Source: Sphingobacteriales bacterium (lineage in GTDB: Bacteria > Bacteroidota > Bacteroidia > Chitinophagales > LD1). From it: DNA of 35,212 bases. This document shows, piece by piece, positions 2,150 to 21,901 of the stretch. The notes under the pieces are model-generated. The model worked only from the letters and a program-made list of their open reading frames with translations. It was not told the DNA's origin and did not search any database. Positions within the stretch are counted from its first letter, which is position 1; each line of letters opens with the position of its first letter. Position numbers and translations under genes: made by a program. Location of the stretch: the NCBI GenBank assembly GCA_018262795.1, contig JADFDM010000011.1:108143-143354 (forward strand), read 5' to 3'.

Positions 2150-2186
2150 AACCTCTTCATTCCCATCGGGAGTAAATTCATCCTTT

Positions 2187-4231: not shown

Positions 4232-4354
4232 TTTAAAAATTGTCGTCCAAGTAAGCATTTGGGTGGTAATAACGCATGGCTTCAGACTGCGCACAGCCAA
4301 GATAGCCGCTCCGTACCAATTGTTCATTGATAAAATCGCTTTCATCTCTTTTTC

Positions 4355-4362
4355 TATTTTTG
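4355..4362 (+). promoter_or_regulatory. Possible Bacteroidota -7 promoter element for dnaX
   Basis: TATTTTTG matches the phylum's -7 consensus TAnnTTTG exactly and lies 6 bp before the dnaX ATG, which would imply a leaderless or nearly leaderless transcript. No TTTG -33 element sits at the expected distance; TTG at 4327 is a few bases too far. Weak support. Confidence 0.25.
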
Positions 4363-4368
4363 TCGCGC

Positions 4369-6132: not shown

Positions 6133-6213
6133 TTTAAAATATCCTAATTTATTATGTGGCCACATGCTATTGGCAGCAACATCCTATTATTGACACTCAA
6201 ACCCATTCACGAT

Positions 6214-9200
6214 ATGAAATTTAAAATCATCCTGTTCTCTCTATGTTGCCTAATAGGTACTTCGCAGGCTCAGAATAAATCGCTGCGCAATCAGAATACG
6301 ATTACAAAGTCAAATCAACCGATTCCTAATTTAAAAATAACGGGAGCGGTGCCTGCTGCTACTGCACGGGCTTCGCAAGCTCCCGCTGCTTTTGTATCGG
6401 TGCCAAACGATCCTTTCAACACGCGCATTTATACGCTGTCGAACGGATTGAAGGTATATCTCTCGGTAAACAAAGATGCTCCGCGCATTCAAACTCTGAT
6501 AGCCGTAAAGGCCGGTTCAAAATTCGATCCTCCGCAAACCACCGGACTGGCGCATTATCTGGAGCACATGATGTTTAAAGGCTCTCGCGATTTCGGTACT
6601 AAAAATTGGAGTAAAGAAAGTCCATTGCTCGATTCTATCTCTGCTTATTTCGAATATCACAAGGATACGCAAGACGAGTGGATGAAGAAGAAACTGTATG
6701 CCAAAATTGATTCCTTCAGTTATGAGGCTTCTAAGTATGCGATCCCCAATGAGTACGATAAAATGATGAGTTCGTTGGGAGCCAGCGGCACCAATGCTTT
6801 TACTTCTACCGACATGACGGTGTATGTGAATGACATCCCTTCAAATGGATTAGAGAAATTTTTGGATCTCGAAAGCGATCGCTTTGAAACTCTGGTGCTG
6901 CGTTTGTTTCATACAGAATTAGAAACGGTGTACGAAGAGTTTAACCGCAACCAAGATAATGACCGTGTTTGGAGCGACCATGCGATTGATAATGCACTGC
7001 TTCCTAATCACCCTTACGGCACTCAAACCACTATTGGCAAAGGAGAAGATTTGAAGAATCCTTCGATGGTAAATATTCACCATTACTTCGACACCTATTA
7101 CCGGCCCGACAATGCGGCTATTATTTTGGCGGGCGATTTAGACCCCGACCAAACTATTCAAATGATTGAAAAATATTTCAGCGGATGGAAAGCAGCCCCC
7201 ATTCCTCCATTTATTAAAAAGCCGGAGCCGGAAATCACTAAGCCGATTGTGCGCGAGTATGATGGGCCGCAGCCGGAGCATGTGTATGTAGGTTTCCGTT
7301 TTGACGGAGCAAACACCCACGATGCGCTGATGCTGAAATTAGTAGATATGATATTGGCGAACGGTCAAGCCGGTTTGATTGACTTGGATCTGGTGCAACA
7401 ACAAAAATTGCTGCAGGCTTATTCGTATGTAGATGAAAACACGGATTACTGCATTCATAAACTTTACGGCCAACCCAAGCAGGGACAAAAATTAGAAGAA
7501 GTAAAAGACTTGATGCTGGGGGAAGTAGAGAAAGTGAAAAAAGGAGAGTTTGGAGATTGGGTATTACCTGCGATTATTCAAAATCTTCGTTTACAACGAA
7601 TGAAGGAAGCCGAGAAGAACAGCAGCCGGGCGTATAACATGATGGGTACTTTTGTTCACAACATCGCTTGGAAAGATTGGGTGAATGAGATTGATGAAAT
7701 GTCGAAAGTGACAAAAGCGGATATAGTGAAGTTTGCCAATGAGCACTACCATAATAATTATGCGGTATGCTACAAGCGCTTAGGCGAAGCGAAGGTATAT
7801 AAAGTAGAGAAGCCAAAGATTACACCGGTAGTCATGAACAAGGACGACATCTCGGCATTTAAACAAAAATGGGATGCCATGCCACAGCCGGCCATCGAGC
7901 CGCATTTCTTGGATTTCAATAAAGATATCACCCACCTGAAATTAGAGAAGGGAGGAGTTCCTTTCGATTATATCCGCAACGATATCAACAAAACTTTTTC
8001 GCTCAATTATATTTTCGATATGGGCACCGATAATATCCGCGAATTAGGCGTTGCTGTCAGTTACTTGGAATACTTAGGTACCGATAAGTATTCTGCCGAA
8101 CAGCTAAAAACAGAGTTCTATAAACTCGGCCTGAGCTTTAGCGTAAACACCGGAAGAGACCGCGTGTATGTTTCGCTTTCGGGATTGGAGTCTAACTTAG
8201 AGAAAGGCTTGCAATTATTTGAAGAAGTGCTGGCAAATGTAAAACCTGACAAGGAAGTGTATCAAGCCATGGTGATGGATATGATGCAAGGTAGGGAGAA
8301 TGCCAAAAAGGATAAGAATACTATTCTTTATAACGGACTGATGAATTATGGCAAATACGGCCCTTCTAACCCTTTCAATTATGTGCTGAGCGAAGATCAG
8401 TTGAACGCATTGGATGTAAATAAATTAGTGAGTATGATCAAGTCACTCACTTCTTACAAGCACAAAATATTTTATTACGGCCAGCGCGATCCGAAAGAAG
8501 TTTTGGCCGTCATCAACAAACTTCATGCGGTAAGTGCTGATTTGAAAAATTATCCGGCAGCAAAAAAATATCCGGAGCTTCCACTGAAAGAGAGCAAGGT
8601 ATATGTGTGTTATTATCCGATGAAACAAGCGGAGATTGTGATGTTGGGTCGCGATGTGATGTTCAACAAGGACTTATACCCTTACATCTTCCTTTATGAC
8701 AGCTATTACGGTTCAGGGCTTTCGTCTATTATGTTTCAGGAAGTGCGGGAGAAAATGGCCTTAGCTTATTCGGTTTACAGCAGTTTTCGCGTGCCTCAAT
8801 ATGCCGATGAATCGCACTACGTGGTTTCGTATGTAGGCACCCAAGCCGATAAAATGGATACCGCCCTGGCAGAAATGAATAAGTTGCTGAACAACCTGCC
8901 CGAAGTGCCACAGCAATATCAAGGAGCGCAAGAAAGTGTAGTGAAAACTTTAGAGAGCGACTGGGTCACCGGCTCTGATATTTACTGGGCTTATGACCGC
9001 GCACAGAAACGCGGATTAGATGTGGATGTGCGCAAAGATATTTTTGCAAAAGTGAAATCCATTTCTTTGCACGACCTTCATCACTTCTTTGATGACCACG
9101 TAAAAGGGAAAAAATACACTTATCTGGTGATAGGCAAAGAGGGCGATATTAAGTTAGATGCCCTCAAAGAACTCGGCCCGGTGCAGGTGCTGGACTTGAA

Positions 9201-9219
9201 TCAGGTGTTTGGATATTAA
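6214..9219 (+). CDS. M16 family (pitrilysin/insulinase) zinc peptidase, secreted
   Basis: About 1001 residues from the ATG at 6214, chosen because MKFKIILFSLCCLIGTSQAQ is a clean signal peptide; an earlier start at 6154 would bury it. The inverted zinc motif is H114-Y-L-E117-H118 in GLAHYLEHMMFKGS. The likely third ligand is E242 in ETVYEEFNRNQ. The ligand spacing is longer than the usual 74-76 residues because of a charged insertion (about 130-185, DEWMKKKLYAKIDSF). A second, inactive M16 half with the R/Y substrate motif (ALAYSVYSSF near residue 850) completes the clam-shell fold. It probably degrades peptides in the periplasm. It lies 81 bp after dnaX, possibly independently transcribed, and is followed by a strong terminator. 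Confidence 0.92.
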   Translation: MKFKIILFSLCCLIGTSQAQNKSLRNQNTITKSNQPIPNLKITGAVPAATARASQAPAAFVSVPNDPFNTRIYTLSNGLKVYLSVNKDAPRIQTLIAVKAGSKFDPPQTTGLAHYLEHMMFKGSRDFGTKNWSKESPLLDSISAYFEYHKDTQDEWMKKKLYAKIDSFSYEASKYAIPNEYDKMMSSLGASGTNAFTSTDMTVYVNDIPSNGLEKFLDLESDRFETLVLRLFHTELETVYEEFNRNQDNDRVWSDHAIDNALLPNHPYGTQTTIGKGEDLKNPSMVNIHHYFDTYYRPDNAAIILAGDLDPDQTIQMIEKYFSGWKAAPIPPFIKKPEPEITKPIVREYDGPQPEHVYVGFRFDGANTHDALMLKLVDMILANGQAGLIDLDLVQQQKLLQAYSYVDENTDYCIHKLYGQPKQGQKLEEVKDLMLGEVEKVKKGEFGDWVLPAIIQNLRLQRMKEAEKNSSRAYNMMGTFVHNIAWKDWVNEIDEMSKVTKADIVKFANEHYHNNYAVCYKRLGEAKVYKVEKPKITPVVMNKDDISAFKQKWDAMPQPAIEPHFLDFNKDITHLKLEKGGVPFDYIRNDINKTFSLNYIFDMGTDNIRELGVAVSYLEYLGTDKYSAEQLKTEFYKLGLSFSVNTGRDRVYVSLSGLESNLEKGLQLFEEVLANVKPDKEVYQAMVMDMMQGRENAKKDKNTILYNGLMNYGKYGPSNPFNYVLSEDQLNALDVNKLVSMIKSLTSYKHKIFYYGQRDPKEVLAVINKLHAVSADLKNYPAAKKYPELPLKESKVYVCYYPMKQAEIVMLGRDVMFNKDLYPYIFLYDSYYGSGLSSIMFQEVREKMALAYSVYSSFRVPQYADESHYVVSYVGTQADKMDTALAEMNKLLNNLPEVPQQYQGAQESVVKTLESDWVTGSDIYWAYDRAQKRGLDVDVRKDIFAKVKSISLHDLHHFFDDHVKGKKYTYLVIGKEGDIKLDALKELGPVQVLDLNQVFGY

Positions 9220-9241
9220 TAGAAAAAAATAAAACATTGAG

Positions 9242-9269
9242 AAGGAGTGGTACCCCCACTCCTTTTTTT
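9242..9269 (+). terminator. Rho-independent terminator after the M16 peptidase
   Basis: Perfect 9-bp arms AAGGAGTGG (9242-9250) and CCACTCCTT (9256-9264) around a 5-base loop, followed by a run of T. It ends the dnaX/M16 side and isolates the T9SS-sigma operon that begins at 9332. Confidence 0.88.
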
Positions 9270-9331
9270 ATTGAATGCTAAAATATGTGGAGACATTTTT
9301 GCTTTAGCACTTAAAACTTAATTTTAGGAGT

Positions 9332-11191
9332 ATGAAGATGATCATGATTTCGGTTGGGATGATTTGTTCCGGCATGTTGTTCGCACAGGGAGGAACTGCA
9401 AAAGTAGAGCGGGGAGGTGTAGCTCCCTTATCGGGCACTATTAATTTGTCAGATACTACCCTTCAGGATTGGGAGCCTCACGTGCTCAACATCAGTGAGC
9501 AGAATGACGGGTCAAAAGAATTTGGTGAAGAAAAGACGATTGTAAATTCGCAAAGAAAGCGTCACCGCGCTCGCAAAAAATTAAAAAATTCGCCTCGCGG
9601 TAGTACTGCTCCTGCCCCGGTGATGTTGCGCAACTTCACTGCCAACAATGCTCAAGGCACGCCTAATGATAATCATATTGCTATTTCTAATGACGGGAAA
9701 ATTGTGAGTGTAGTGAATACCAACTTTAGAGTGTATAACCAAAACGGCACTCAGCTACAGTCAAAAACACTGAGCTTGTTTGGAAATTCTTTAGGGATAC
9801 TGATGGCTATCAGTGATCCACGAGTAATATATGATCCCGTAGAAGACCGCTTTATAGTGGTTTTTTTTTCGGGTAACACCAGCAGCAGTACTCATATTAT
9901 CGTAGCATTTTCAAAAACCAATGACCCGGCCGGTCAGTGGAACTTATATTCTTTGAACGGTAATTCTCTCAACGATTCCACTTGGAGTGATTACCCGATC
10001 GTCTCTCTTTCCGACAAGGATTTGTTTATGACCTTTAACCATTTAATAGATGGAAATGATTGGAAAGTCGGCTTTCGCTATTCGGCCATCTGGCAAATTG
10101 ATAAACAAAAAGGGTATGACGGAGATTCCTTGCAATTTGATTATTGGCACCACATAGATTACAACGGTCAGCCAGTGTGGAACGTATGCCCCATTCGTGG
10201 CGGTACCGGTCTTTCCGGTCCCGAAACCTATTTCCTTTCGGTTCGTCCGAGCGATTTAAGTAACGACACCGTTTTTCTTCAATCAATTTCCGATTCCTAT
10301 CTAAGCGGCAATGCGCAGTTTTCGATGAAAGCTCTTAAAACAGATGTGGAGTACGGCATTGCTCCCGATGGGCTTCAGAAAGACGGCCAGTACTTAGCCA
10401 CCAACGATGCTCGCGTGCTCGATGGTTTTATCGCCAATGATAGAATTCAATATGTGCACAACACCTTAGCACCACAAAGTTTTACTTCAGGAGTTTATTT
10501 GGGAACAATAGATCATCCCGGCTCTGCTAATCCAAGTGTTTTTGGACAGATTATTTCAAACGATACAATAGATTTTGGATACCCTTCTATTGCTTACATG
10601 GGTAACAATGCTTTTGATAATCGTGCTATCATCACTTGTTCCTTCTCTTCTCCTGATACTTTCCCGGGCACTGTTGCCTTTTACAAGGATGCTGCTGAAA
10701 ATATTTCTGATATGCTGGTGGTGAAAAATGGCGAAAAGGCGGTGGATGTAATGCTCGACTCCGTAGAACGCTGGGGCGATTACACCGGAATTCAACGAAA
10801 ATACAACGAGCCGAACGTAGCTTGGCTGGCGGGTTCTTATGTATATCCTTCTCGGGCTTACCGCACTTGGATTGCAGAGTTAATCAACCCCGATTCTTCG
10901 GTGGTTTCTTCTTTGGCAGAACCTGAAAAAGATTGGTCAACGCAGGTGTTTCCCAACCCCGCAGCAGATTATTTCAGTGTAAAGTTTCGATCACGCGAAA
11001 ACAACTTTACTCGTTTTGCGATCTATGATGTGAGTGGCAAACTGATTCGTGTACTGCTCGAAGACAAAGTGAAAGACGGTGAAAATATATTTTCATTCAG
11101 CACCCGATACCTTTCCGATGGTATCTATTTTTTAAAGATAACGGATAGAGGAGAAGCGGAACAAACTGCGAAGGTGGTAATCAGGCAATAG
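9332..11191 (+). CDS. Secreted beta-propeller-like protein with T9SS type A sorting domain
   Basis: A 619-residue protein with a signal peptide (MKMIMISVGMICSGMLFAQ). After a basic, low-complexity stretch (QRKRHRARKKLK, about residues 74-86) comes a region with NDNHIAISNDGKIVSVVN, SDPRVIYDPVEDRFIVVFF and SDYPIVSLSDKDLFMTFN. These look like successive propeller blades of the kind found in Bacteroidota exo-alpha-sialidase-like proteins, but no catalytic residues can be assigned. The end, from VFPNPAADYFSVKF to QTAKVVIRQ (about 540-619), is a type A T9SS sorting domain. A run of nine T (9861-9869) encodes VVFF and is a potential slippage point. The stop is 2 bp before the sigma-factor start, so these genes are almost certainly co-transcribed. 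What it binds is unknown. Confidence 0.82.
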   Translation: MKMIMISVGMICSGMLFAQGGTAKVERGGVAPLSGTINLSDTTLQDWEPHVLNISEQNDGSKEFGEEKTIVNSQRKRHRARKKLKNSPRGSTAPAPVMLRNFTANNAQGTPNDNHIAISNDGKIVSVVNTNFRVYNQNGTQLQSKTLSLFGNSLGILMAISDPRVIYDPVEDRFIVVFFSGNTSSSTHIIVAFSKTNDPAGQWNLYSLNGNSLNDSTWSDYPIVSLSDKDLFMTFNHLIDGNDWKVGFRYSAIWQIDKQKGYDGDSLQFDYWHHIDYNGQPVWNVCPIRGGTGLSGPETYFLSVRPSDLSNDTVFLQSISDSYLSGNAQFSMKALKTDVEYGIAPDGLQKDGQYLATNDARVLDGFIANDRIQYVHNTLAPQSFTSGVYLGTIDHPGSANPSVFGQIISNDTIDFGYPSIAYMGNNAFDNRAIITCSFSSPDTFPGTVAFYKDAAENISDMLVVKNGEKAVDVMLDSVERWGDYTGIQRKYNEPNVAWLAGSYVYPSRAYRTWIAELINPDSSVVSSLAEPEKDWSTQVFPNPAADYFSVKFRSRENNFTRFAIYDVSGKLIRVLLEDKVKDGENIFSFSTRYLSDGIYFLKITDRGEAEQTAKVVIRQ

Positions 11192-11193
11192 GA

Positions 11194-11790
11194 ATGAGCA
11201 GCCCCGAAGAACAAAAATTAGAACCTGAAAAATGGATAGAGCGCTATGCGGATAAACTCTATTCGTATGCATTAGCGCGTGTAAGCAGGCAGTCGGTGGC
11301 GGAGGACTTGGTGCAGGATACTTTTTTGAGTGCGCTCAAAGCAAAGGATTCTTTTCTGTTCAATGCGTCTGAAAAAACCTGGCTTATCGCTATTCTGAAA
11401 CGGAAAATCATTGACTACTACCGCAAGAAATCCACTCAAAACGAACTGAACATTTTTGATAGAGACACAAAGGATGATTTTATGAATCACTTTTTCGATA
11501 CGGAAGGCAGAAGTGATGGGCACTGGACGAAGAAGGCTTTGCCTGAATCGGGTAGTAAGAACTTTGAAACAGCCATAGAAAGCAAGGAATTTCAAAACAT
11601 TTTGCAGCGTTGCATCGGGAAACTTCCGGTTAAATGGGCAGCCGTTTTTATGCTAAAAAATATGGACGATATGGAGACGGAAGAAATTTGTAAAGAATTG
11701 GAAATATCACCGTCCAACTACTGGGTAATAATGCATCGCGCAAAACTTCAGTTGCGGGAATGTATGGAGCTAAACTGGCTGAAGCAATGA
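11194..11790 (+). CDS. ECF-type sigma-70 family RNA polymerase sigma factor
   Basis: A 198-residue sigma factor. Region 2 is visible as LYSYALARVSRQSVAEDLVQ, DTFLSALKAKDSF and TWLIAILKRKIIDYYRKK (the -10-binding helix pair, about residues 22-88). Region 4 runs from about 138 to 198: LQRCIGKLPVKWAAVFMLKN, then EEICKELEISPSNYWVIMHR (helix-turn-helix), AKLQLRECMELNW. The linker has the variable acidic and aromatic sequence common in the Bacteroidota branch of ECF factors. The start at 11194 lies 2 bp after the T9SS gene. Its stop overlaps the next start as ATGA, typical of translational coupling to a cognate regulator. The regulon is unknown; control of surface or T9SS genes is an inference from position. 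Confidence 0.9.
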   Translation: MSSPEEQKLEPEKWIERYADKLYSYALARVSRQSVAEDLVQDTFLSALKAKDSFLFNASEKTWLIAILKRKIIDYYRKKSTQNELNIFDRDTKDDFMNHFFDTEGRSDGHWTKKALPESGSKNFETAIESKEFQNILQRCIGKLPVKWAAVFMLKNMDDMETEEICKELEISPSNYWVIMHRAKLQLRECMELNWLKQ

Positions 11791-12050
11791 AACGGAAAAA
11801 CACTTTAATGATCACCTGCCGGGATGCTACCTTTCTTTATACTAAAAAGAAGGAAGGAAAATTGAGTCTGGCGGAACGTTTGGCTCTGTGGTTTCATTTG
11901 TTGATGTGTAAGTTTTGTGCGCTGTTTTTAAAGCAGACAGAAGACTTAGAAAAAGCAGCTCACCATTCAGCCGATACACAGGATGTAACACTTAGCCCGG
12001 AGGCGAAAGAAAAGATGCGTCAGGCGCTGCTCAACGAGGGGAATAACTAA
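11787..12050 (+). CDS. Small zinc-binding anti-sigma-like protein
   Basis: 87 residues from the ATG at 11787, whose ATGA overlaps the sigma-factor stop. The core CRDATFLYTKKKEGKLSLAE, then LALWFHLLMCKFCALF, matches the zinc anti-sigma pattern: His-x3-Cys-x2-Cys preceded by an upstream Cys. This small family commonly follows ECF sigma genes in Bacteroidota. No transmembrane helix follows, so unlike many anti-sigma factors it should be soluble. The C-terminus is a charged helix (SPEAKEKMRQALLNEG). Sequestering the sigma factor under a redox or zinc signal is inferred from family and overlap. A longer reading from 11760 lies inside the sigma gene and is not favoured. Confidence 0.72.
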   Translation: MKRKNTLMITCRDATFLYTKKKEGKLSLAERLALWFHLLMCKFCALFLKQTEDLEKAAHHSADTQDVTLSPEAKEKMRQALLNEGNN

Positions 12051-12084
12051 ACAACCCTTCTCTATTCTCCTTCTCACAGATTTA

Positions 12085-12103
12085 TTAGGTTTGCCTAACT
12101 TCA
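12085..12103. promoter_or_regulatory. DtxR/MntR-box-like operator before the E2 gene
   Basis: TTAGGTTTGCCTAACTTCA contains a perfect TTAGG-TTTG-CCTAA inverted repeat (12085-12098). It agrees with the classic DtxR operator TWAGGTTAGSCTAACCTWA at 16 of 19 positions by eye. The same 14-mer core, with one change, occurs before mntH at 20006-20019. It lies 11 bp before the ATG at 12114, so a bound repressor would block transcription or initiation. Confidence 0.5.
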
Positions 12104-12113
12104 ATACAAATTT

Positions 12114-13346
12114 ATGGCAGAAGCAATTCGATTAGGCAGAATGACAGATACAATGGACGAAGGATTCATTGCAGAACTCAGCATTAAAGTAGGAGATAAA
12201 GTAAAGACAGGCGATGCTATTGCCGAAATAGAAACGGACAAAGCAACTTTGCCTTTAGAATCTTTTTTTAATGGAGAGATATTACACATCGCTGCAAAAA
12301 AAGGGGATACCCTGAAGATTGGTGATCTCATTGCTATAGTCGGAAAGAAGGGAGAAGATTTTTCGGAATTACTGAAAGAGGTAAAGGACGATAAAAAAGA
12401 ATCGGTTGTTGAAACAAAAGAAAAAACGGAGGCAAAAATTGCTCCTTCCACTGCGGTGAAACCGGAAGTGCAAAAAGCGGAGATAATTGCTCCGGCAAAT
12501 GATGGAAGAAGAATAAAAGCCTCGCCATTAGCAAGAATGATTGCTCGTGAAAAGGGAGTAGATCTCAGTCAAGTAAACGGTACCGGGGAAGATGGAAGAA
12601 TTGTAAAACGTGATCTAGAGAATGTTTTGTCACCGTCTGTCGCAGCTCCTGCTTTTGTGGGGAAGGAAAATTCACGCGATGTAAGGGTTAGTCAAATGCG
12701 CAAGACTATTGCCAAGCGTTTAAGCGAGAGTAAATACAGCGCTCCGCATTTTTACCTCACCATGGATGTAAACATGGACAATGCGGTTTCGTTAAGAGGG
12801 CAGTTGAATAATTTATTACCCACAAAGATTTCGTTTAACGACATCGTGCTGAAGGCCACTGCACAGGCTATACGGCAATCACCGGAGGTAAATTGCTCTT
12901 GGTTGGGAGATGTGATTCGTTATCACGACCACATTCATATTGGTATGGCAGTAGCTGTGGAGGAAGGGCTGTTAGTGCTGGTCATAAAATTTGCGGATGG
13001 AAAATCTATTCAGCAAATTTCTGATGAAGCAAAGTCGCTGGCGCAGAAAGTGAGTACTAAAAAAATTCAACCGCAAGAAATGGAAGGGAACACTTTTACA
13101 ATTTCTAACCTCGGTATGTTTGGAATCGAAGCGTTTACGGCAATCATTAATCCACCCGATGCCTGCATCTTAGCAGTGGGGGCCATTCGGCAAGAATTAG
13201 CAATGGCCGATAATCAGGTGAAGCCTGTAAATAAAATGAAACTGACTTTGAGTTGCGACCATCGCGCAGTGGATGGCGCTAAAGGAGCCAAGTTTCTTCA
13301 GACACTAAAAAACATCCTCGAAAATCCGGTCAGCCTTTTACTGTAA
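12114..13346 (+). CDS. Dihydrolipoyl acyltransferase, E2 of a 2-oxoacid dehydrogenase complex (probably pyruvate)
   Basis: A 410-residue E2 protein, shorter than multi-lipoyl forms. There is one lipoyl domain (residues 1-80) with lipoyl-lysine K43 in EIETDKATLPLES. A Lys/Glu-rich linker and a peripheral-subunit-binding domain follow (about 130-165: ASPLARMIAREKGVDLSQVN, GTGEDGRIVKRDL). The catalytic domain starts near residue 185 (SQMRKTIAKRLSESK) and contains H383 in DHRAVDG, the acyl-transfer histidine. It should move acetyl groups from lipoamide to CoA, feeding acetyl-CoA into the TCA cycle. E1 and E3 genes are not in the window. The MAEAIRLGRMTDTMDEG opening fits Bacteroidota PdhC/AceF; a branched-chain E2 is less likely. 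A DtxR-like box lies just upstream. The 3' end overlaps the convergent gene by 9 bp. Confidence 0.93.
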   Translation: MAEAIRLGRMTDTMDEGFIAELSIKVGDKVKTGDAIAEIETDKATLPLESFFNGEILHIAAKKGDTLKIGDLIAIVGKKGEDFSELLKEVKDDKKESVVETKEKTEAKIAPSTAVKPEVQKAEIIAPANDGRRIKASPLARMIAREKGVDLSQVNGTGEDGRIVKRDLENVLSPSVAAPAFVGKENSRDVRVSQMRKTIAKRLSESKYSAPHFYLTMDVNMDNAVSLRGQLNNLLPTKISFNDIVLKATAQAIRQSPEVNCSWLGDVIRYHDHIHIGMAVAVEEGLLVLVIKFADGKSIQQISDEAKSLAQKVSTKKIQPQEMEGNTFTISNLGMFGIEAFTAIINPPDACILAVGAIRQELAMADNQVKPVNKMKLTLSCDHRAVDGAKGAKFLQTLKNILENPVSLLL

Positions 13347-13625
13347 TTCCACATCTGCTATAGCTTCTAAAGGAATCACCGTGCCGCCTTTCAGCAAAAT
13401 AAATTTCTCTGTGGTGGCCCAGATGGCCGAAGATATTTCTTTGTAACCATCCAGCGTATTAAAAGTAATTTTTGCTTGGCTGTGGTAGTTGTTGCCCAAC
13501 AACATGGCTAAAAATAATCTTTGATTCCGCTCTCTGATTTCAAAATCTGTAAATCGTTGGAATGGTTGTTTAAAGGTGCAATGGTTTAGCCGTTCCTTCT
13601 CGATTGGTTCTGCGATAGTTCTCAT
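13338..13625 (-). CDS. Small conserved Bacteroidota protein of unknown function
   Basis: A 95-residue protein starting at the ATG at 13625. The pattern NQRLFLAMLLGNNYHSQAKI, then a strand-rich FNTLDGYKEISSAIWATTEK and FILLKGGTVIPLEAIADVEL, resembles a conserved small cytosolic family common in Bacteroidota. The second half looks like a small beta-barrel. I know no function. It is transcribed toward the E2 gene, overlapping its last 9 bases, with no terminator between them. Confidence 0.68.
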   Translation of the reverse strand: MRTIAEPIEKERLNHCTFKQPFQRFTDFEIRERNQRLFLAMLLGNNYHSQAKITFNTLDGYKEISSAIWATTEKFILLKGGTVIPLEAIADVELQ

Positions 13626-13769
13626 AAAAATTTACTTGTTCGTTACCGTAGCTTCTACGGTGGATCTGTTAAAAATGTTTCCGAGTAGGACAAAGTATTT
13701 TCTATCCTTTGCATTTCAACTGTTTTGCGAAGTGCTGTGCCTTCGATTAGAATCTCTACCTTAGCACCT

Positions 13770-14126
13770 ATGAAAACTTTAGTATTAGGTGCCTCTCTTC
13801 ATTCGCACAGGTACTCTTTTAAAGCCATTAATTTATTGAGAGCACACCATCATGAAGTCATTGCTTTGGGGCGCGATGCCGGCCAAGTAGCAGATGTAGA
13901 ATTGGTAAAAGATTTTCCTCAGAACGAGAAATTAGATACGATCACTATCTATTTGAATCCCGAACGCCAGAAGGAATATTACGACAGAATTATTCAGGCC
14001 AAGCCCAGAAGAATTATTTTTAATCCGGGTGCTGAAAATCCGGAACTGGAAAAGTTAGCGCGAGAAAACGGCATACAAACCGAAGAAGCTTGTACCTTGG
14101 TGTTGTTGGGTACGGGTCAATATTGA
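13770..14126 (+). CDS. CoA-binding (Rossmann) domain protein
   Basis: 118 residues from the ATG at 13770. This start places MKTLVLGASLHSHRYSFKAI as the first beta strand and nucleotide loop; a start at 13725 adds 15 residues before the fold and is not favoured. LLRAHHHEVIALGRDAG, then DTITIYLNPERQKEYYDRII, KPRRIIFNPGAENPELEKLA and TEEACTLVLLGTGQY fit the CoA_binding_2 family, about the usual length. These single-domain proteins probably bind CoA or acyl-CoA, but no reaction is established. It is upstream of, and may share a transcript with, the dienoyl-CoA reductase-like gene, which would fit an acyl-CoA link. Confidence 0.85.
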   Translation: MKTLVLGASLHSHRYSFKAINLLRAHHHEVIALGRDAGQVADVELVKDFPQNEKLDTITIYLNPERQKEYYDRIIQAKPRRIIFNPGAENPELEKLARENGIQTEEACTLVLLGTGQY

Positions 14127-14154
14127 GTTTATAGTCGAAAGTGTATAGTAGAGC
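14127..14154. repeat. Short degenerate heptamer tract
   Basis: Immediately after the CoA-binding gene's stop, four heptamers in register read GTTTATA, GTCGAAA, GTGTATA, GTAGAGC. A related five-unit tract lies at 15103-15137 and the long array at 15552-15803. It is too short to be compelling alone. Confidence 0.4.
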
Positions 14155-14214
14155 GGAAAAAAATTACTGAATAAACATTGAAATTATTTCCAATAAATCA
14201 TTAAACAAAAATTT

Positions 14215-15096
14215 ATGAGTTACACAGAAGGAATGCTGAAGGAGGATGCGCTGAAAGGTAAAACGATCATCATCACGGGTGGGGGAACCGGCTTAGGTCG
14301 TTCTATGAGTAAATATTTTTTGCAATTAGGGGCTAACGTAGTTATTACCAGTCGCAAATTAGAAGTGTTGCAGAATACTGCTAAAGAGTTGGAAAATGAA
14401 ACCGGAGGGAAGGTGCTGGCTGTGCAATGCGATGTGCGCAACTATGAAGAAGTAGAAAACATGGTGCAAGAAACTGTGAAGACTTTTGGTAGTGCTGACG
14501 TATTAGTAAACAATGCTGCCGGAAATTTCATCAGCCCGACCGAGCGCTTATCTCCTCGTGCCTTTGATACTATCGTGGACATTGTGCTAAAAGGCTCTTA
14601 CAACTGCACTTTGGCCTTGGGTAAATACTGGATAAAGGAGAAGCAAACGAATAAGACGGTGTTGAGTATTGTCACTACTTATGCGTGGACCGGTTCTGCT
14701 TATGTGGTGCCTTCTGCTTGTGCTAAGGCCGGGGTGCTTTCCATGACTCGCTCGCTGGCGGTGGAATGGGCAAAGTACGGCATTCGTATGAATGCTATCG
14801 CTCCGGGACCCTTTCCGACAAAAGGAGCCTGGGATCGTTTAGTGCCGGGAGAGTTTAGAGAGAAGTTTGACTTAAAAAAGCAAGTGCCTTTGCGCAGAGC
14901 TGGAGAACATCAGGAGTTGTGTAATCTGGCCGCCTATTTGGTCTCTGATTTCTCAGCTTTTGTAAATGGCGAAGTAGTTACCATTGATGGCGGTGAATGG
15001 CTGCAAGGAGCCGGTGAATTCAACCTGTTTGATGAAGTCACTTCTGAGCAATGGGATTTAGTGGAGCAGATGGTGCGAAAAGCGAAGAGCGAGTGA
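14215..15096 (+). CDS. SDR family 2,4-dienoyl-CoA reductase-like oxidoreductase
   Basis: A 293-residue short-chain dehydrogenase. The cofactor loop is TGGGTGLG (about residues 21-28) and the structural motif NNAAG (about 99-103). The usual Tyr-x3-Lys is not seen; the position reads VVPSACAKAGV, i.e. Ser-x3-Lys, as in the mitochondrial-type DECR1 reductases. The C-terminal EFN...VTSEQWDLVEQMVRKAKS also resembles DECR1 proteins. By family it would use NADPH to reduce trans-2,cis-4-dienoyl-CoA during beta-oxidation of unsaturated fatty acids. It has no signal peptide and should be cytosolic. The leader is A/T-rich, with no Shine-Dalgarno sequence. The neighbouring CoA-binding protein is consistent with acyl-CoA chemistry. 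Confidence 0.88.
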   Translation: MSYTEGMLKEDALKGKTIIITGGGTGLGRSMSKYFLQLGANVVITSRKLEVLQNTAKELENETGGKVLAVQCDVRNYEEVENMVQETVKTFGSADVLVNNAAGNFISPTERLSPRAFDTIVDIVLKGSYNCTLALGKYWIKEKQTNKTVLSIVTTYAWTGSAYVVPSACAKAGVLSMTRSLAVEWAKYGIRMNAIAPGPFPTKGAWDRLVPGEFREKFDLKKQVPLRRAGEHQELCNLAAYLVSDFSAFVNGEVVTIDGGEWLQGAGEFNLFDEVTSEQWDLVEQMVRKAKSE

Positions 15097-15102
15097 GTTG
15101 CA

Positions 15103-15137
15103 GTTGATAGTCCGGAGTCTATAGACAATAGTAAAAG
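15103..15137. repeat. Degenerate heptamer tract before the four-helix-bundle gene
   Basis: Five heptamers in register: GTTGATA, GTCCGGA, GTCTATA, GACAATA, GTAAAAG. GTCTATA and GACAATA closely resemble units of the long array 450 bp downstream, so the small gene at 15146 lies between two heptamer tracts. Confidence 0.5.
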
Positions 15138-15145
15138 GAAAGCAA

Positions 15146-15499
15146 ATGCCCTTTAAATTTGAGAACTTGTTGGTTTGGCAGAGAGCGATAGACTTTACTG
15201 ACTTGGTATATGATGCATCCGCAAAATTTCCGAAAGATGAGCTATTCAACATTACTTCACAGTTTAAGCGAGCAACTACTTCTATCAGTCTGAATATCGC
15301 AGAAGGTGCCAGTGGAAATAGTAATCCGGAATTCCAACGTTTTCTGACTTATGCAGGTCGCTCAGTTGCTGAAGTGGTTAATTGCCTATATATCTGCCGA
15401 AGGAGAAAATTTATTTCAGAGGAGCAATTTAAATTGCTTTATTCTAAAGCTGAAGAGCTTGCGAAAATGATTAGTGGATTGAGTAATTCTCTCAAATGA
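15146..15499 (+). CDS. Four helix bundle protein (23S rRNA intervening-sequence type)
   Basis: A 117-residue, mostly helical protein of the 23S rRNA IVP / four-helix-bundle family (usual length 115-125). Landmarks are FENLLVWQRAIDFTDLVYDA, FPKDELFNITSQFKRATTSI, the very conserved SLNIAEGASG, then FQRFLTYAGRSVAEVVNCLY and a final AEELAKMISGLSNSL. The fold is shared with Avd proteins of diversity-generating retroelements, but there is no reverse transcriptase or variable repeat here. The family's role is unknown; members occur both in 23S rRNA insertions and, as here, free in the chromosome. It is flanked by heptamer tracts on both sides, which suggests it may travel as part of a repeat-associated module. 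Confidence 0.9.
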   Translation: MPFKFENLLVWQRAIDFTDLVYDASAKFPKDELFNITSQFKRATTSISLNIAEGASGNSNPEFQRFLTYAGRSVAEVVNCLYICRRRKFISEEQFKLLYSKAEELAKMISGLSNSLK

Positions 15500-15551
15500 T
15501 TGAACATACCATTCTCAATAATGACTTTATTCTTATGAAATGTTCTCCAAG

Positions 15552-15803
15552 GTCTATTTACTATAGACAATGGACTATTGACTAATAACTATGGACAATG
15601 GACAATGGACAATGGACTATTGACTAATAACTATGGACTATGGACTATTGACTATGGACTATGGACTATTGACTAATAACTATGGACAATGGACTATTGA
15701 CTATTGACTATTGACTATTGACTAATAACTATGGACAATGGACTATTGACTATTGACTAATAACTATAGACTATGGACTATTGACTATGGACTAATAACC
15801 AAT
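15552..15803. repeat. Array of 36 contiguous heptamers
   Basis: From 15552 to 15803 the sequence divides into 36 heptamers with no insertion or deletion. Counts: GACTATT 11, GACAATG 6, GACTAAT 6, GACTATG 5, AACTATG 4, plus four one-off variants (GTCTATT and TACTATA at the start, AACTATA, and AACCAAT at the end). A higher-order trio GACTATT, GACTAAT, AACTATG recurs at 15573, 15615, 15664 and 15713, and with a final A at 15748; spacings are 42, 49, 49 and 35. It resembles the short tandemly repeated heptanucleotides (STRR) known from cyanobacteria. It ends 2 bp before the MntR-type start codon, so it replaces that gene's proximal leader. Units joined as ATTGAC create many TTGAC words that could act as -33/-35-like elements. 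Confidence 0.97.
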
Positions 15804-15805
15804 AC

Positions 15806-16462
15806 ATGAGTTTCACTATTACCGAAGAAAACTACATCAAAGCCATCTTCCACCTCAGCGAAGCGGGCGATGAGAATATTTCTACCAGCGACATATCAAA
15901 AGCGGTGAATGCTACCGCTGCTTCCGTCACGGACATGCTCAAGAAACTGAAGCAGAAAAAGATTGTCACTTACGAAAAATATTATGGCGTTCGACTGACG
16001 ACACAAGGAGAAAAAATTGCTAAGTCGGTGATTCGAAAACATCGTTTATGGGAAGTTTTCTTAGTCGAAAAATTGAATTACTCATGGGATCGCATTCACG
16101 ATATTGCCGAACAGTTAGAGCATATACAGTCGGATGAACTGATTGAAAAATTAGAGAAGTTTTTGGGCTACCCTAAATTTGATCCGCATGGCGACCCCAT
16201 CCCGGATGCAAAGGGGAATATGAAAAGCCAAAAGCAAACACTGCTCAACAAACTCCCTAAAGGGTATAAAGGAACCGTGGTGGGGGTGAAAGACAGCTCT
16301 TCTGAATTGCTTCAGTACCTCAACGAATTGGATATTTACTTGGGTACCGCTATTGAGATTAATGACATCATTGAATTTGATGGTTCTTTTATGGTCACAA
16401 TCAATCGGAAAAAGAAAGCCAGCCTGAGCAAGTTGGTGACACAGAATATTTTTGTGAGCTGA
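15806..16462 (+). CDS. Metal-dependent transcriptional regulator, DtxR/MntR family
   Basis: A 218-residue repressor. There is an N-terminal winged helix (TSDISKAVNATAASVTDMLK, residues about 27-46), then the metal-binding dimerisation domain and a FeoA/SH3-like C-terminal domain (about 152-217). Ligand positions align with Corynebacterium DtxR: H79, E83, H98, E105 and H106 are kept. DtxR Cys102 is Glu102 here, as in the manganese regulator MntR (E-x2-E-H), and DtxR Met10 is Asn9. I infer manganese or mixed Mn/Fe sensing. A probable target is the NRAMP transporter at 20030, which has a DtxR-like box. The start codon directly follows the 36-unit heptamer array, so its own transcription or translation may depend on array length. 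Confidence 0.9.
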   Translation: MSFTITEENYIKAIFHLSEAGDENISTSDISKAVNATAASVTDMLKKLKQKKIVTYEKYYGVRLTTQGEKIAKSVIRKHRLWEVFLVEKLNYSWDRIHDIAEQLEHIQSDELIEKLEKFLGYPKFDPHGDPIPDAKGNMKSQKQTLLNKLPKGYKGTVVGVKDSSSELLQYLNELDIYLGTAIEINDIIEFDGSFMVTINRKKKASLSKLVTQNIFVS

Positions 16463-16648: not shown

Positions 16649-19267
16649 ATGAAAATACTTACTACTCCATTTCTACTGTTCCTGTTTTTTGCATCCTCGC
16701 TATCCGCACAACTTAACTTAGACTGGCAGGAAATGGGACCTGACAACTTTGGTGGTTTTGCTACCGGATTAATTATTGACAATAGGGATTCAACGCACCA
16801 AACTCTCTATGTTGGTACTCAGGGAGGCGGAGTTTGGAAATCGGTGAACGGAGGCGATTGGTGGACAGCTTTGGATTGCATGGAAAATATGAATGTGCAG
16901 TGCATTACTCAGGCAGTTAATGGAACTATTTACATCGGCACAGGCTTAAATATGTTTGGACTTCAGGGCAGTAGTTTTGTGGTTGGTCAGAAGGGAAATG
17001 GAATTTATCAATTAGATGCAAATGACCATTTCATTCACATAATATCTACTTCATCAGGAGGTTCCCTGGCCAGCCCTTGGATAGGTGTGAACCGAATTGC
17101 AGTGAATCCTCAAAATACTAATCAGTTTCTGGCAGCTACGGATAAGGGACTTTACTATTCATCGGATGCGGGAACTAATTGGAACGAAATATTGGTAAAT
17201 GGTGTTACATCCGGCCAGGTATCATCGGATGTAAAGTGGAGTGCCGATGGTTTGAAAATTTTTGCTGTGGTGGGCGGTAATAACAAACTAATACGCTCTA
17301 CAAATGGGGGTAGTAATTGGGAGAGAATATCCAATACCACCAACCCTGGATTTCCTACTACTCAGGGGCGTATTGAGGTGGCCATCGCCCCATCAAATTC
17401 TGATGTTTGTTACATATCGGTTGCTACCTCTATAGGTTGTACCTATGGAGTGTTTAAATCTGTTGATGGCGGTGCTACTTGGGATACGCTTATAATGCAT
17501 AGCAACATATTTGATCCTTTCAGCCTAGTCTGCCAGGGTTGGTACGACAATGCAATTGCTGTAATGCCCAATGATGAGGATAGAATAATAGTGGGGGGTG
17601 TATATCTCTATACCTTTTCATCGGCAATCGGTTTACACAAGCAAAATCAATTCATAGCCGATTACTTGGAGCCTACCAATTTTGTTGACCAGTTTCAATA
17701 TGTAATAAATGATGCAAATCCGGATGAGATGTATGTTGTATCAGATGAAGGTATCTTTAAGTCTTACAATGCTTCGTCTGATTTTAGCGCATTTGATGTT
17801 TACTGGAAATCAGCTGGCATGAAAGCCTGCCCCTTCTACTCGGTGGCTGCGGCTAAAGACGGTCGGGTGATGGGTGATAACTCGGATATTGGAACATTGA
17901 TAAACACTCCGGGTTCGTTGCATTTTCAGAAATCGTATAGAGGGCTTGGCTTCTGCGAGTTTTCGCACCTCGATACAAGTGTTCTGTTCGCTGAACATTA
18001 TTTCGGTCAACTAAAGAGAAAAATGAATGGAGGAAATTCATTTAGCTCTTGCTTTGACAATAATATTGATCCACAAGGTTCGGGCGAACCCAGCCGTTGC
18101 GGTGGGCAAATGAATGCAAATGCGCCATATATTACGCCTTACATTTTGCACGAAACGCGCGTTGCCGGAAATACTATTGATAGTGTAACTTATACAGCAA
18201 CTTCCAACTTACTTTCGGGCGATACTATAACCGCCACAAGCAATGTAAATACCATTCCTTTCAAATATACACTTCCAATAAACCTGAATAGCGGCCAAAG
18301 CATAAAAATTCCTGACCCGATTAAATCCAGGATATTTTTTGCTTCCAATTGTGGAGGTTGGGTAAAGTTGCACGCTTTATCCGATGATACATTAATGTCT
18401 GACTGGTTCAGGTTTACTTCGATTGGATATGGTATCCCATATTCATTTGCGGCTACTAGTGATGGTAATACGGTTTACACCGGATTTTCTAAAGGTGCGA
18501 TTACTCGTACTACGGGTTTCAATACAACTATCTTCAACAGTTGGAATGTAAAGGATAGCCTGCAGCAATATATGGATACCGTATCGCTAAGTCGTCCAAT
18601 AGAAGGGATAGCAGTAGATGCCCATAACGACAATCATGTGGTTTGTGCAATAGCGGGTTACGACTCCACAAAGCCCAATTTTTATAAATCCACTGATGGC
18701 GGACAAACCTGGACAGGAATACAGGTTGGGCCACCGGAAACTCCTGCTTATACCTGTGTAATTGATATCAATAACAGTGATCATTATTTGGTAGGTACGG
18801 AAAATGGAATTTGGACATCAAGCGATGCCGGGCTTACTTGGCAGCGGGAAAGTGCAGAGTTATGTGATGTACCGGTTTACAGGCTTCGGCAGATTTCATT
18901 GTATGCAGAGGATTGCCCGGTGTTGTACGCTGCCACCCAATCAAAAGGAATATGGCGTTCTTTTACGCTTACGCCTTCCGGTTGTAATATACATAGTGGG
19001 TTCGGCAATATCTATTCCTCCGCAAGTACCGGCCTAATAAAACTCTACCCCAACCCAAATAATTCCGACAGATTACATGTGGAATTCAGCGATGATTTAA
19101 TGGGAGGAGAACTCGTTTTACAGGATATTTTAGGACGAGAGATTTTACATTTCCCAATTGATAAAACGAAAAGCCAGATAAACATTGACAGATTGAGTAG
19201 AGGAATGTATGTAGTAGTTGCTAGTAAGGGAAGATTAATATCCACATCAAAACTGATAGTAGAGTAA
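16649..19267 (+). CDS. Large secreted Asp-box (BNR) propeller protein with T9SS sorting domain
   Basis: 872 residues with a signal peptide (MKILTTPFLLFLFFASSLSA). Asp-box repeats (S-x-D/N-x-G-x-x-W) occur along the length: SVNGGDWW, SSDAGTNW, STNGGSNW, SVDGGATW, STDGGQTW, SSDAGLTW. They indicate one or two sialidase/VPS10-type beta-propellers. No sialidase catalytic Arg triad or FRIP motif is evident, so an adhesin or binding role is as likely as hydrolysis. A central 80-residue segment (VTYTATSNLLSGDTITATSN) looks like an inserted beta-sandwich. The last 80 residues (LYPNPNNSDRLHVEF to STSKLIVE) are a type A T9SS sorting domain. It is monocistronic by spacing: 186 bp after the regulator and convergent with the SGNH hydrolase. 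Confidence 0.88.
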   Translation: MKILTTPFLLFLFFASSLSAQLNLDWQEMGPDNFGGFATGLIIDNRDSTHQTLYVGTQGGGVWKSVNGGDWWTALDCMENMNVQCITQAVNGTIYIGTGLNMFGLQGSSFVVGQKGNGIYQLDANDHFIHIISTSSGGSLASPWIGVNRIAVNPQNTNQFLAATDKGLYYSSDAGTNWNEILVNGVTSGQVSSDVKWSADGLKIFAVVGGNNKLIRSTNGGSNWERISNTTNPGFPTTQGRIEVAIAPSNSDVCYISVATSIGCTYGVFKSVDGGATWDTLIMHSNIFDPFSLVCQGWYDNAIAVMPNDEDRIIVGGVYLYTFSSAIGLHKQNQFIADYLEPTNFVDQFQYVINDANPDEMYVVSDEGIFKSYNASSDFSAFDVYWKSAGMKACPFYSVAAAKDGRVMGDNSDIGTLINTPGSLHFQKSYRGLGFCEFSHLDTSVLFAEHYFGQLKRKMNGGNSFSSCFDNNIDPQGSGEPSRCGGQMNANAPYITPYILHETRVAGNTIDSVTYTATSNLLSGDTITATSNVNTIPFKYTLPINLNSGQSIKIPDPIKSRIFFASNCGGWVKLHALSDDTLMSDWFRFTSIGYGIPYSFAATSDGNTVYTGFSKGAITRTTGFNTTIFNSWNVKDSLQQYMDTVSLSRPIEGIAVDAHNDNHVVCAIAGYDSTKPNFYKSTDGGQTWTGIQVGPPETPAYTCVIDINNSDHYLVGTENGIWTSSDAGLTWQRESAELCDVPVYRLRQISLYAEDCPVLYAATQSKGIWRSFTLTPSGCNIHSGFGNIYSSASTGLIKLYPNPNNSDRLHVEFSDDLMGGELVLQDILGREILHFPIDKTKSQINIDRLSRGMYVVVASKGRLISTSKLIVE

Positions 19268-20029: not shown

Positions 20030-21901
20030 TTGAGCAGCCATAAATCCTTAGATGAAGTTCACGGCAGTATAGATACAACACAAGCTAAAGGCGGCTGGCG
20101 AAAGTTTTTCCTGTATGCCGGGCCTGCTTTTTTGGTAGCGGTGGGATACATGGATCCGGGCAATTGGGCTACCGATATTGCTGGGGGAAGCAAGTACGGC
20201 TATTCGCTGTTGTGGGTGTTGGTGATGAGCAACCTGATTGCTTTGTTGTTGCAAAGCCTGAGCGCGCGCTTGGGCATTGTGAGAGGCCGAGATTTGGCGC
20301 AAGCCTCGCGCGACATTTACCCCAGTAGTGTGAATTACACGCTTTGGGCATTAGCCGAAATTGCCATTGCTGCCTGCGATTTGGCCGAGGTGTTAGGAAT
20401 GGCTATCGGATTAAATCTTTTGTTCCACTTACCGCTGTTGTGGGGCGTTTCTCTCGCGGTGCTCGACACTTTTCTGATTCTATTTTTACAGAGTAAAGGC
20501 ATGCGCTATATGGAAGCGCTTATCCTGGCTTTGGTCGCTTTAATCGGTATTTCCTTTTTCATTGAATTGGTTTTTGCAAAGCCCGACATGGGCGAACTGG
20601 CTACCGGCTTTATCCCTTCCTTAAAAGATGCCGGAGCCTTATACATTGCCATTGGCATTATTGGCGCTACGGTGATGCCGCACAATTTATATCTGCATTC
20701 CTCATTAGTGCAAACTCGCAGAAACAAAAGAGATGACGAGGGTATCCGCACGGCTATCCGGTATAATTTTTTTGATTCTACCTTGGCGCTGAATCTGGCT
20801 TTTTTTGTCAATGCTTCTATATTGGTGCTGGCGGCTGCTGTATTCTTTAAAGGCGGCTATCACGACATTGTAGAAATTCAAGATGCCCATGCCATGCTGG
20901 AACCTTTGCTGGGTGAAAAATTGGCCCCCATTCTTTTTGCGGTGGCTTTGATAGCTGCGGGCCAAAGCTCCACCATCACCGGTACCTTAGCCGGTCAAAT
21001 TGTGATGGAAGGCTATCTCGATTTGCGCATTTCACCTTGGTTGCGCAGGCTCATCACCCGTTTGCTGGCGGTGGTTCCCGCCTTTTTAGTCATTTATTTT
21101 ATGGGCGATAGTAAGGTGGGCGATATGCTCATTCTCTCACAGGTTATTTTGAGTTTGCAGTTGGGTTTTGCCGTTATTCCGCTCATACACTTTGTGAGTG
21201 ATAAGGAAACAATGGGCAAGTTTGCCATCGGTCATGTGGTGAAAGTATTAGCCTGGGTTTCGGCAACCATTATCATTGGACTTAACATTAAATTGGTGAT
21301 TGATACGCTGGCGGATTGGCAGGAAGAACTATCCGGCCATTTATGGGTTTTTAACTTTGTGATCCTGCCGATAGTTATCCTAGCGGCTCTGCTACTAGCG
21401 CTGGTCACTTACTATGCGCTTCGGCAAGCTAAACCTTCCAGAGAAACGACCGTGCCACATGGCAAGGCGATTGAAATTCCGCTGATTCAAAAAAAGGTGT
21501 ACTCCTGTGTAGCCATTTGTGTTGACTTCTCGAAAGATGATATTCGGGCTTTAACCGAAGGCGTTTCGCACGGTGTATCGGATACGAAATACTGTCTCAT
21601 TCACGTAGTGGAGTCTGCCGGAGCACTTACGCTCGGAGCCGAAATTCAAGATTACGAAACACATGAGGACTGGATACAGCTCAAGAAATATGGCGAAAGC
21701 CTGCGGGCACAGGGCTATGAAGTGACCGAGAAGCTCGGCTTTGGGAATCCTAAAAAAGTGATCCCAAGAATGGTCAAAGAAATGAATCCCGGCCTGCTGG
21801 TTATTGCTCGCCACGGCCACGGCAGCATTATGGATTTCATTTATGGCGAAACCATTTCGGTAGTGCGGCACAAAGTAAAATGCCCGGTGCTGGTGGTTTA
21901 A
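20030..21901 (+). CDS. mntH: NRAMP divalent metal transporter fused to a universal stress protein domain
   Basis: 623 residues. The likely start is TTG at 20030: the next Met is Met42 inside the first membrane helix, too late to be the start. NRAMP motifs are D43-P-G-N46 (GYMDPGNWATD, TM1) and M216-P-H218 (TVMPHNLYLHSS, TM6), the Mn2+/Fe2+ binding site, with about 11-12 membrane segments to residue 470. From about 487 to the end is a UspA domain (VYSCVAICVDFSKDD ... VIARHGHGSIMDFIYGET). It carries the Gly-x2-Gly-x9-Gly-Ser-like ATP-loop region in somewhat altered form (GHGS...GETIS). NRAMP-USP fusions are known in Bacteroidota. It should import Mn2+ with protons; the Usp tail may sense nucleotides. 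Paired metal boxes lie immediately upstream. The thioesterase gene follows after 19 bp. Confidence 0.93.
   Translation: MSSHKSLDEVHGSIDTTQAKGGWRKFFLYAGPAFLVAVGYMDPGNWATDIAGGSKYGYSLLWVLVMSNLIALLLQSLSARLGIVRGRDLAQASRDIYPSSVNYTLWALAEIAIAACDLAEVLGMAIGLNLLFHLPLLWGVSLAVLDTFLILFLQSKGMRYMEALILALVALIGISFFIELVFAKPDMGELATGFIPSLKDAGALYIAIGIIGATVMPHNLYLHSSLVQTRRNKRDDEGIRTAIRYNFFDSTLALNLAFFVNASILVLAAAVFFKGGYHDIVEIQDAHAMLEPLLGEKLAPILFAVALIAAGQSSTITGTLAGQIVMEGYLDLRISPWLRRLITRLLAVVPAFLVIYFMGDSKVGDMLILSQVILSLQLGFAVIPLIHFVSDKETMGKFAIGHVVKVLAWVSATIIIGLNIKLVIDTLADWQEELSGHLWVFNFVILPIVILAALLLALVTYYALRQAKPSRETTVPHGKAIEIPLIQKKVYSCVAICVDFSKDDIRALTEGVSHGVSDTKYCLIHVVESAGALTLGAEIQDYETHEDWIQLKKYGESLRAQGYEVTEKLGFGNPKKVIPRMVKEMNPGLLVIARHGHGSIMDFIYGETISVVRHKVKCPVLVV

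Follow-up and report, generated by a model that had tools for sequence, protein, structure and literature searches.

The closest described counterpart of the locus examined here is the intervening sequence in the 23S rRNA of Coxiella burnetii; it contains an S23 open reading frame (ORF), its ends are complementary, and RNase III cleaves it (PMC4990558). In that element, three tandem GACAGAT heptamers (two in some strains) precede the S23 ORF, and the same source describes the S23 protein family as having a solved ring structure and no known role (PMC4990558). S23 genes have also been noted earlier in cas loci (PMC3936711). The element that we describe resembles the Coxiella sequence in having a sense S23 ORF in what is probably a host transcript, ends predicted to be complementary and tandem heptamers, but it lies between an SDR gene and mntR rather than in an rRNA helix and, whereas the published description of the Coxiella heptamers places them before the ORF only, both of its arms are heptameric and its 3′ arm comprises 36 units.

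Bacterial heptamer arrays have been reported repeatedly, without an agreed function. The STRR repeats of cyanobacteria, for example, are heptamers. Cyanobacterial repeats of this name appear in PMC2670836, and dispersed heptamers without a known protein partner have been described in Geobacter (PMC2700814). TAACTGA direct repeats occur in Beggiatoaceae (mostly just before start codons), cyanobacteria and Bacteroidetes, reach up to 43 copies in several members of the latter two groups and differ among related Cyanothece strains by indels that are mostly 7-nt steps; according to their author, they might regulate translation or be bound by a protein still to be identified (PMC4679880). The array studied here likewise lies just before a start codon; unlike it, the TAACTGA repeats come without a named S23 or four-helix gene, and the term ‘four helix’ is absent from the main text of PMC4679880. 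In Xanthomonas and Nostoc, GGGAATC and GGGGA(C/T)T heptamers, described as G-quadruplex repeats with a functional role said to be unknown, are preferred between aligned ORFs and near ORF ends, form many inverted pairs and favour 4 units, and the same paper considers slippage as an explanation of heptamers (PMC4692102). The heptamers of S23 elements are similarly inverted and similarly found in junctions of aligned genes, and X. campestris is both the source of the protein XCC0516 (PDB 2GSC) and a bearer of GGGAATC heptamers.

A gene enclosed by its repeats is also the hallmark of RAYT/REP systems, in which an HUH/Y1 transposase gene lies between inverted cognate repeats and solo copies occur elsewhere. 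S23 elements share this layout with RAYT/REP/REPIN systems (that is, an S23 gene between inverted repeat copies, with solo arrays elsewhere), but they have no HUH/Y1 transposase, their repeat is a tandem array of 7- or 8-mers, and the present unit does not recur as many dispersed copies of the same repeat. Among the open-access literature matches listed, no report connects S23-family genes with the length of a repeat unit or, beyond rRNA, with inverted arrays of heptamers.

An S23 gene between two heptamer arms

The window (that is, the whole 35,212-nucleotide stretch of DNA that was analysed) contains an array that had been described, in the original prediction, as 36 heptamers without an indel, built from five main units and ending 2 bp before the start codon of a DtxR/MntR regulator, and it has these properties: its 252 bp (15552–15803) consist of GACTATT (11 units), GACAATG (6), GACTAAT (6), GACTATG (5) and AACTATG (4) together with four singletons, and the mntR ATG follows at 15806 (Table 1). 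Position 3 (C) and position 5 (A) are invariant in 36/36 units. Tandem Repeats Finder (TRF) fits period 7 to 15554–15794 (34.4 copies, 80% matches, 0% indels), and the lag-7 score of about 143–144 compares with a maximum of 15 in 1000 mononucleotide shuffles (lags 4–13). Of the partly ordered higher-order pattern claimed for the array, a weak trace remains: unit lag 7 (49 bp) alone stands out, with 10/29 matches (p = 0.01, uncorrected over 14 lags), and TRF also fits 42- and 49-bp units; a strict higher-order repeat was dropped, 1 of 14 lags being nominally significant. The window holds no second array at a score of at least 13 (lags 4, 5, 7, 8, 10, 11 and 13), and a search of the whole assembly for GACTATT-type arrays, a check that had been proposed, returned 16 overlapping exact GACWATK dimers, all inside the window array.

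Upstream of the array lies a gene whose product falls in the S23 family by profile cut-off, matching TIGR02436 (E 6.3e-33, 113.2 bits against a cut-off of 24) and PF05635 (E 5.1e-35, 120.3 bits against 33.8); it is related to PDB 2GSC (XCC0516; E 1.7e-13), and its gene is the one ORF of at least 80 aa in the insert. Ahead of this gene, the minus strand reads as five heptamers that agree with the array in type and register (TACTATT, GTCTATA, GACTCCG, GACTATC and AACTGCA), so that the S23 gene sits between two inverted arms in a unit of about 710 bp (that is, 5′ arm, S23 gene and 3′ array). No transposase gene, as expected of an insertion sequence or transposon, is present within 15094–15805. 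Profile scanning of the S23 protein found no catalytic domain and no HUH/Y1 transposase domain, the matching profiles being those of the S23 family and bAvd, the latter at 22.7 bits and thus below its 40-bit cut-off; reverse transcriptase is absent from the five window proteins scanned (S23, SDR, MntR and the products of 16649–19267 and 20030–21901). There was no Rfam match at gathering score in 15000–15900, and PADLOC, consulted for a defence-system reading, gave no match for three S23 proteins. We consider it very probable that the window array represents the 3′ arm, in expanded form, of an S23-gene insert that resembles an intervening sequence and lies in the SDR–mntR junction. Separately, 20030–21901, about 3.6 kb downstream of mntR, encodes an MntH-type Mn transporter that carries a universal-stress-protein domain at its C terminus.

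Table 1. Features of the SDR–mntR junction in the window
Feature	Position	Strand	Basis or remark
SDR-family gene, upstream operon partner	14215..15096	+	ORF; SDR / adh_short_C2
Insert, inferred extent	15094..15805	+	Not present in sister genome G008 or in three further relatives
5′ arm of five heptamers, in inverted orientation to 3′ array	15099..15133	-	Sequence; predicted RNA pairing
Four-helix-bundle protein, S23 / 23S rRNA intervening-sequence (IVP) family, 117 aa	15146..15499	+	Profile matches
3′ arm, 36-unit heptamer array	15552..15803	+	Expanded; arms usually hold about 5 units
mntR (DtxR/MntR regulator), downstream operon partner	15806..16462	+	ORF; Fe_dep_repress, Fe_dep_repr_C and FeoA domains

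MntR relatives are present in 49 of 60 related genomes, and the sequence before mntR was read in this genome and 16 relatives. In four of them (L060, L063, L067 and L068) SDR and mntR share the sequence TAATG, in which stop and start codon overlap, and both the array and the S23 gene are absent. One of these empty sites (L060, from genome G008) precedes an mntR whose product is 86% identical to the window MntR, and it groups with the window locus (L059) as its sister in a tree of MntR proteins (support 90/87). By eye, three relatives (L062, L064 and L074) have short arrays after SDR and no visible S23 gene, three (L069, L070 and L072) have a short gap before mntR and no evident array, and three (L061, L065 and L066) have a different upstream gene with heptamers present. 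Given that the sister and further relatives are empty, the S23 gene and the array are best read as a single insert that was probably gained in this lineage, parting a gene pair that is stop–start coupled in four relatives. TGAGTT occurs at both insert ends (15094–15099 and 15807–15812), a possible 6-bp target duplication in this one case; as the empty site of the sister reads GAGTAATGAGTT, the case is not a clean one. The short S23-less arrays between SDR and mntR in L062, L064 and L074, together with the inverted partners of some solo arrays, would suit a scenario in which hairpin arrays already present in operon junctions serve as landing sites, with S23 genes inserting mid-array and thereby coming to lie between inverted arms; we regard this as improbable, as array and gene are both missing from the sister genome and the match between period and protein subfamily (see below) would require subfamily-specific targeting.

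The position of the array 2 bp before the start codon had also suggested that it contains or displaces the mntR promoter and leader and that slippage could tune the level of MntR. Such closeness is general to the class, however: the distance from the end of the 3′ arm to the next ATG has a median of 6.5 nt and is at most 10 nt in 73/106 cases (20% for random points), which explains the spacing in the window. Moreover, the TAATG overlap with SDR in four relatives leaves no room for a junction promoter, and the same architecture stands beside many unrelated operon genes, leaving the array unsupported as a regulator device. On the basis of the empty sites and the general position rule we reject the promoter or leader role, to which we give next to no credence. 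The link between array and MntR looks incidental, and the effect on MntR is most likely the loss of stop–start coupling, as a side effect.

Repeat arrays around S23 genes in other genomes

The genome itself has 10 TIGR02436 matches, at least one match is found in 54/60 relatives and none in 14 control genomes. Another copy in the same genome (L026) is flanked by a CACCCGT array at the 5′ side and, at the opposite side, by GTGACGG units in inverted orientation. In 40 loci with 42 S23 genes (472,681 bp), 27 lag-7 and 9 lag-8 arrays lie near an S23 gene and 22 and 7 elsewhere (the latter 29 becoming 24 once two double-S23 loci are no longer counted twice), whereas lags 4, 5, 10, 11 and 13 give 0–1 arrays each near an S23 gene. 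A public-genome scan of 79 named loci gave 60 near and 38 far arrays at lag 7 and 3 near and 4 far at lag 8. As the whole-flank enrichment (60 vs 38, with near sequence making up 4% of bases) overstates the effect, intergenic gaps are the fairer comparison: an array score of at least 15 is reached in 63/183 gaps adjoining an S23 gene and in 37/552 other gaps (34% vs 7%), these other gaps coming largely from loci chosen for an S23 gene. When the best lag from 4 to 13 was taken in the 150-bp flanks of 154 elements (score at least 12), it was 7 in 92, 8 in 7 and another value in 7, which supports the earlier suggestion that the 7-bp period itself is kept, as a real and recurrent property.

Arms have a median length of 5.0 units in heptamer and 4.4–4.5 units in octamer elements (inside the 150-bp flanks). 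With usual arms of about 5 units, the 3′ arm in the window is strongly expanded, and we infer that it grew to 36 units by whole-unit copying. Other long arrays include L123 (lag-8 score 132), L104 (lag-7 score 89) and L302 (99).

These sets were assembled as follows. The 40 long loci and 60 later loci were hand-picked without sight of their flanks (with one exception, in L111, which had been seen as L035), and the best-scoring 30 loci of one search were taken automatically. The own-genome flank test left out 3 of the 10 matches (L027, which is partial, and L025 and L028, which together make up one broken copy), and L039 was left out for its short flank; L198 was left out of the 79-locus set, and 4/79 loci with short flanks were left out of its alignment test. 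The 154-element set follows from dropping 4 of 158 and retains up to 4 duplicate proteins; with 90 further elements and duplicates removed, it becomes the set of 240 used below, mostly from Bacteroidota.

Arrays without an S23 gene are common, which counts against the reading that we prefer: besides the 37/552 other gaps, 400 kb of this genome hold 12 arrays (10 lag-7 and 2 lag-8, the strongest scoring 27 against about 144 for that of the window), one next to the A3-type S23 gene L023 and one next to the S23 gene L022. The lack of any array at threshold in 77/240 elements counts against it as well, although in 22 of these 77 the inverted match of the flanks exceeds the 99th percentile for the group concerned.

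Several loci show how repeats are distributed around S23 genes. The CCGCAAT heptamer flanking L022 recurs 10 kb off (L330, 452–483 and 10538–10605), away from the listed S23 matches. From position 6372 of L104, an AACTCAT/AACTCCT family fills successive gene junctions after the S23 gene, beside a gene that by eye looks Fic-type and beside another operon gene, and in L097, by eye a suf-like operon, one cistron after another is preceded by a heptamer array, but a single junction holds an S23 gene. In L031, L032, L043 and L049, S23 elements with differing heptamers precede what seems to be the same gene (start MQEAY), perhaps also the downstream gene of L047 and L052 (start MEA); differing heptamers at one site among genomes suggest that both arms may change together.

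Inverted arms, orientation and unit length

The flanks of S23 genes tend to match each other in inverted orientation. The inverted match exceeds the 99th percentile of mismatched pairs in 96/240 elements (2.4 expected) and the 95th in 140, and within elements the inverted score beats the direct score in 199 cases and loses in 31. Among control genes of 90–200 aa, the same score was passed by 11/311 in inverted and 10/311 in direct orientation. Counting against the reading that we prefer, direct matches are also over expectation (32/240 above the 99th percentile and 42 above the 95th), and octamer elements pass the 99th percentile equally often in both orientations (5/45 each), with a paired comparison of 35 vs 8. 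S23 genes also follow the direction of their neighbours: among 227 elements, ++ was found in 200, -+ in 12, +- in 14 and -- in 1 (13 of the 240, which have no close neighbours on both sides, are left out), compared with 105, 67, 61 and 26 for own-genome control triples (n = 259). In the window, the S23 gene is sense to its host transcript, which the operon layout suggests to be a shared one. Near-exclusive sense orientation fits dependence on the host operon transcript.

Unit length follows protein subfamily. Octamer elements fall mostly in one subfamily, A3; after the sample had been widened with a profile of this subfamily and with more loci, its 58 elements comprise 40 octamer, 2 heptamer and 16 unlabelled cases, compared with 114 heptamer, 5 octamer, 2 ambiguous and 61 unlabelled cases among the 182 others (Fisher p = 8e-30); at a stricter threshold, the octamer:heptamer ratios are 24:2 and 4:81. 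Five proteins that served as seeds to define A3 had been picked for their octamers, and without them the A3 ratio is 35:2. In the 11 genomes with both kinds labelled, A3 elements are 14 octamer and 1 heptamer (5 of these 15 being seeds) and the others 14 heptamer and 0 octamer. On a tree of the 240 proteins, at least 6 label changes are required, as opposed to 32–44 in 200 label shuffles, and A3 forms one side of a branch with support 86, the alignment being short and poorly resolved. Seven labelled elements (2/42 and 5/119) are exceptions to the rule and count against it. An octamer core, C-N-N-A-T-Y, stands above its null in both arms (information content 6.36 vs a maximum of 4.28 in the 3′ arm and 5.70 vs 3.89 in the 5′ arm). 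A common heptamer motif (an [AT]CT core by eye) was dropped and is not claimed, because it is not above null; among heptamer elements below 55% protein identity, unit distance falls weakly with protein identity (r = -0.14; 0/500 permutations as low). Direct recognition of the repeat unit by the S23 protein seems to us somewhat likelier than its converse.

These two patterns bear on a simpler account, in which the arrays are ordinary slippage microsatellites (that is, 7-nt units are favoured, arrays grow under weak selection and S23 genes merely occupy such gaps). Arrays do occur in other gaps, the window array looks grown by whole-unit copying, and slippage has been put forward for heptamers (PMC4692102), but slippage leaves unexplained both the inverted matching of flanks (96/240 vs 11/311 control genes) and the A3 octamers beside the heptamers of other subfamilies within the same genomes. 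We therefore think it quite improbable.

An RNA-level reading and its rivals

The best-supported reading is that the S23 element is an mRNA counterpart of the 23S rRNA intervening sequence and that its S23 partner would keep it in register. The inverted arms would pair in the operon mRNA and enclose the S23 ORF in a long stem like that of 23S rRNA intervening sequences; an RNase III-type enzyme could cut at this stem, which may be tolerated given a site between cistrons; the S23 protein, which forms a pentameric ring in PDB 2GSC, would recognise the repeat unit, whereby register is kept and period is tied to subfamily; and whole-unit copying might have produced the array of 36 units. For the window element, folding of 15094–15805 predicts that the 5′ arm pairs with the array in both the minimum-free-energy and the centroid structure, through 34 pairs joining 15096–15132 to 15644–15681, at a mean arm–array pairing probability of 0.85 (0.07 for 30 shuffled arms, maximum 0.45) and a fold z of -4.9 against 20 shuffles; its ends are thus predicted to be complementary and able to form a stem, as in the rRNA intervening sequences. 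The same element fails the 150-bp flank-alignment test (its score of 16 is below the 95th percentile of mismatched pairs, 20), which counts against pairing, so that its arm pairing rests on the folding results. Whether the two arms act as a long RNA stem around the S23 ORF is, on these predictions, close to an even question, and we place it slightly on the doubtful side.

Alternatively, the element may work at the DNA level, like RAYT and REP, with the S23 protein binding the inverted arrays and helping another enzyme to copy them, and solo arrays being non-autonomous. Inverted cognate flanks and a period that follows the protein are equally what this account would lead one to expect; 7 of 16 testable far arrays (out of 24) have the same unit as an array that flanks an S23 gene elsewhere in their genome (2.1 expected, some of them maybe being the same locus), and an inverted partner above the 99th percentile exists for 7/36 solo arrays. 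Plasmid searches matched 21 records, mostly cyanobacterial, of which 12 copies were examined (11 cyanobacterial and 1 from Azospirillum, L309, whose S23 gene is unannotated and has estimated ends). The lag-7 flank score is at least 12 in 11/12 and L310 has a lag-8 score of 14 (both without control windows); by eye, the arms are inverted in, for example, Nostoc (L301) and Azospirillum (L309) and direct in Pseudanabaena (L302). Among annotated plasmid copies, 8/11 are sense to both neighbours and 3/11 antisense to both. The antisense copies in cyanobacteria and the direct arms of L302 are unexpected under a strict mRNA-stem model and, with the solo arrays, leave room for a DNA-level account. That account has to contend with the nearly exclusive sense orientation in operons (200 vs 1), the lack of any catalytic domain match in the S23 protein and the confinement of exact GACWATK dimers to a single array in the genome, and we hold it to be unlikely, if the most credible of the alternatives.

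Returning to the reading as a counterpart of the rRNA intervening sequence, we tentatively propose, as a possibility that we would not yet favour over its negation, that S23 proteins are register-specific partners of arrays (8-nt for one subfamily and 7-nt for the others) and form with them an unrecognised class of selfish protein-and-repeat elements in operon junctions of Bacteroidota, Cyanobacteria and Proteobacteria, with the rRNA intervening sequences as the rRNA branch and the STRR, TAACTGA and GGGAATC repeats as footprints of this class. Protein type predicting unit length gives the questions of heptamers and of S23 one direct test, namely binding of a protein to its own unit. The same link would also hint at the relation between 23S rRNA intervening sequences and the numerous stand-alone S23-family genes, and at why Bacteroidota operons often hold a small S23 gene with repeats between cistrons.

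Under other phylum names, the genome scan gave few matches (for example, Deltaproteobacteria L202 and Acidobacteriaceae L206), mostly in metagenome bins that are maybe misassigned. Some of the plasmid copies lie between ribonucleotide-reductase genes, and in three cyanobacterial plasmids (L302, L306 and L310) S23 genes with repeat arms are found between cas genes (cas6–cas4 and cas10–cmr3).
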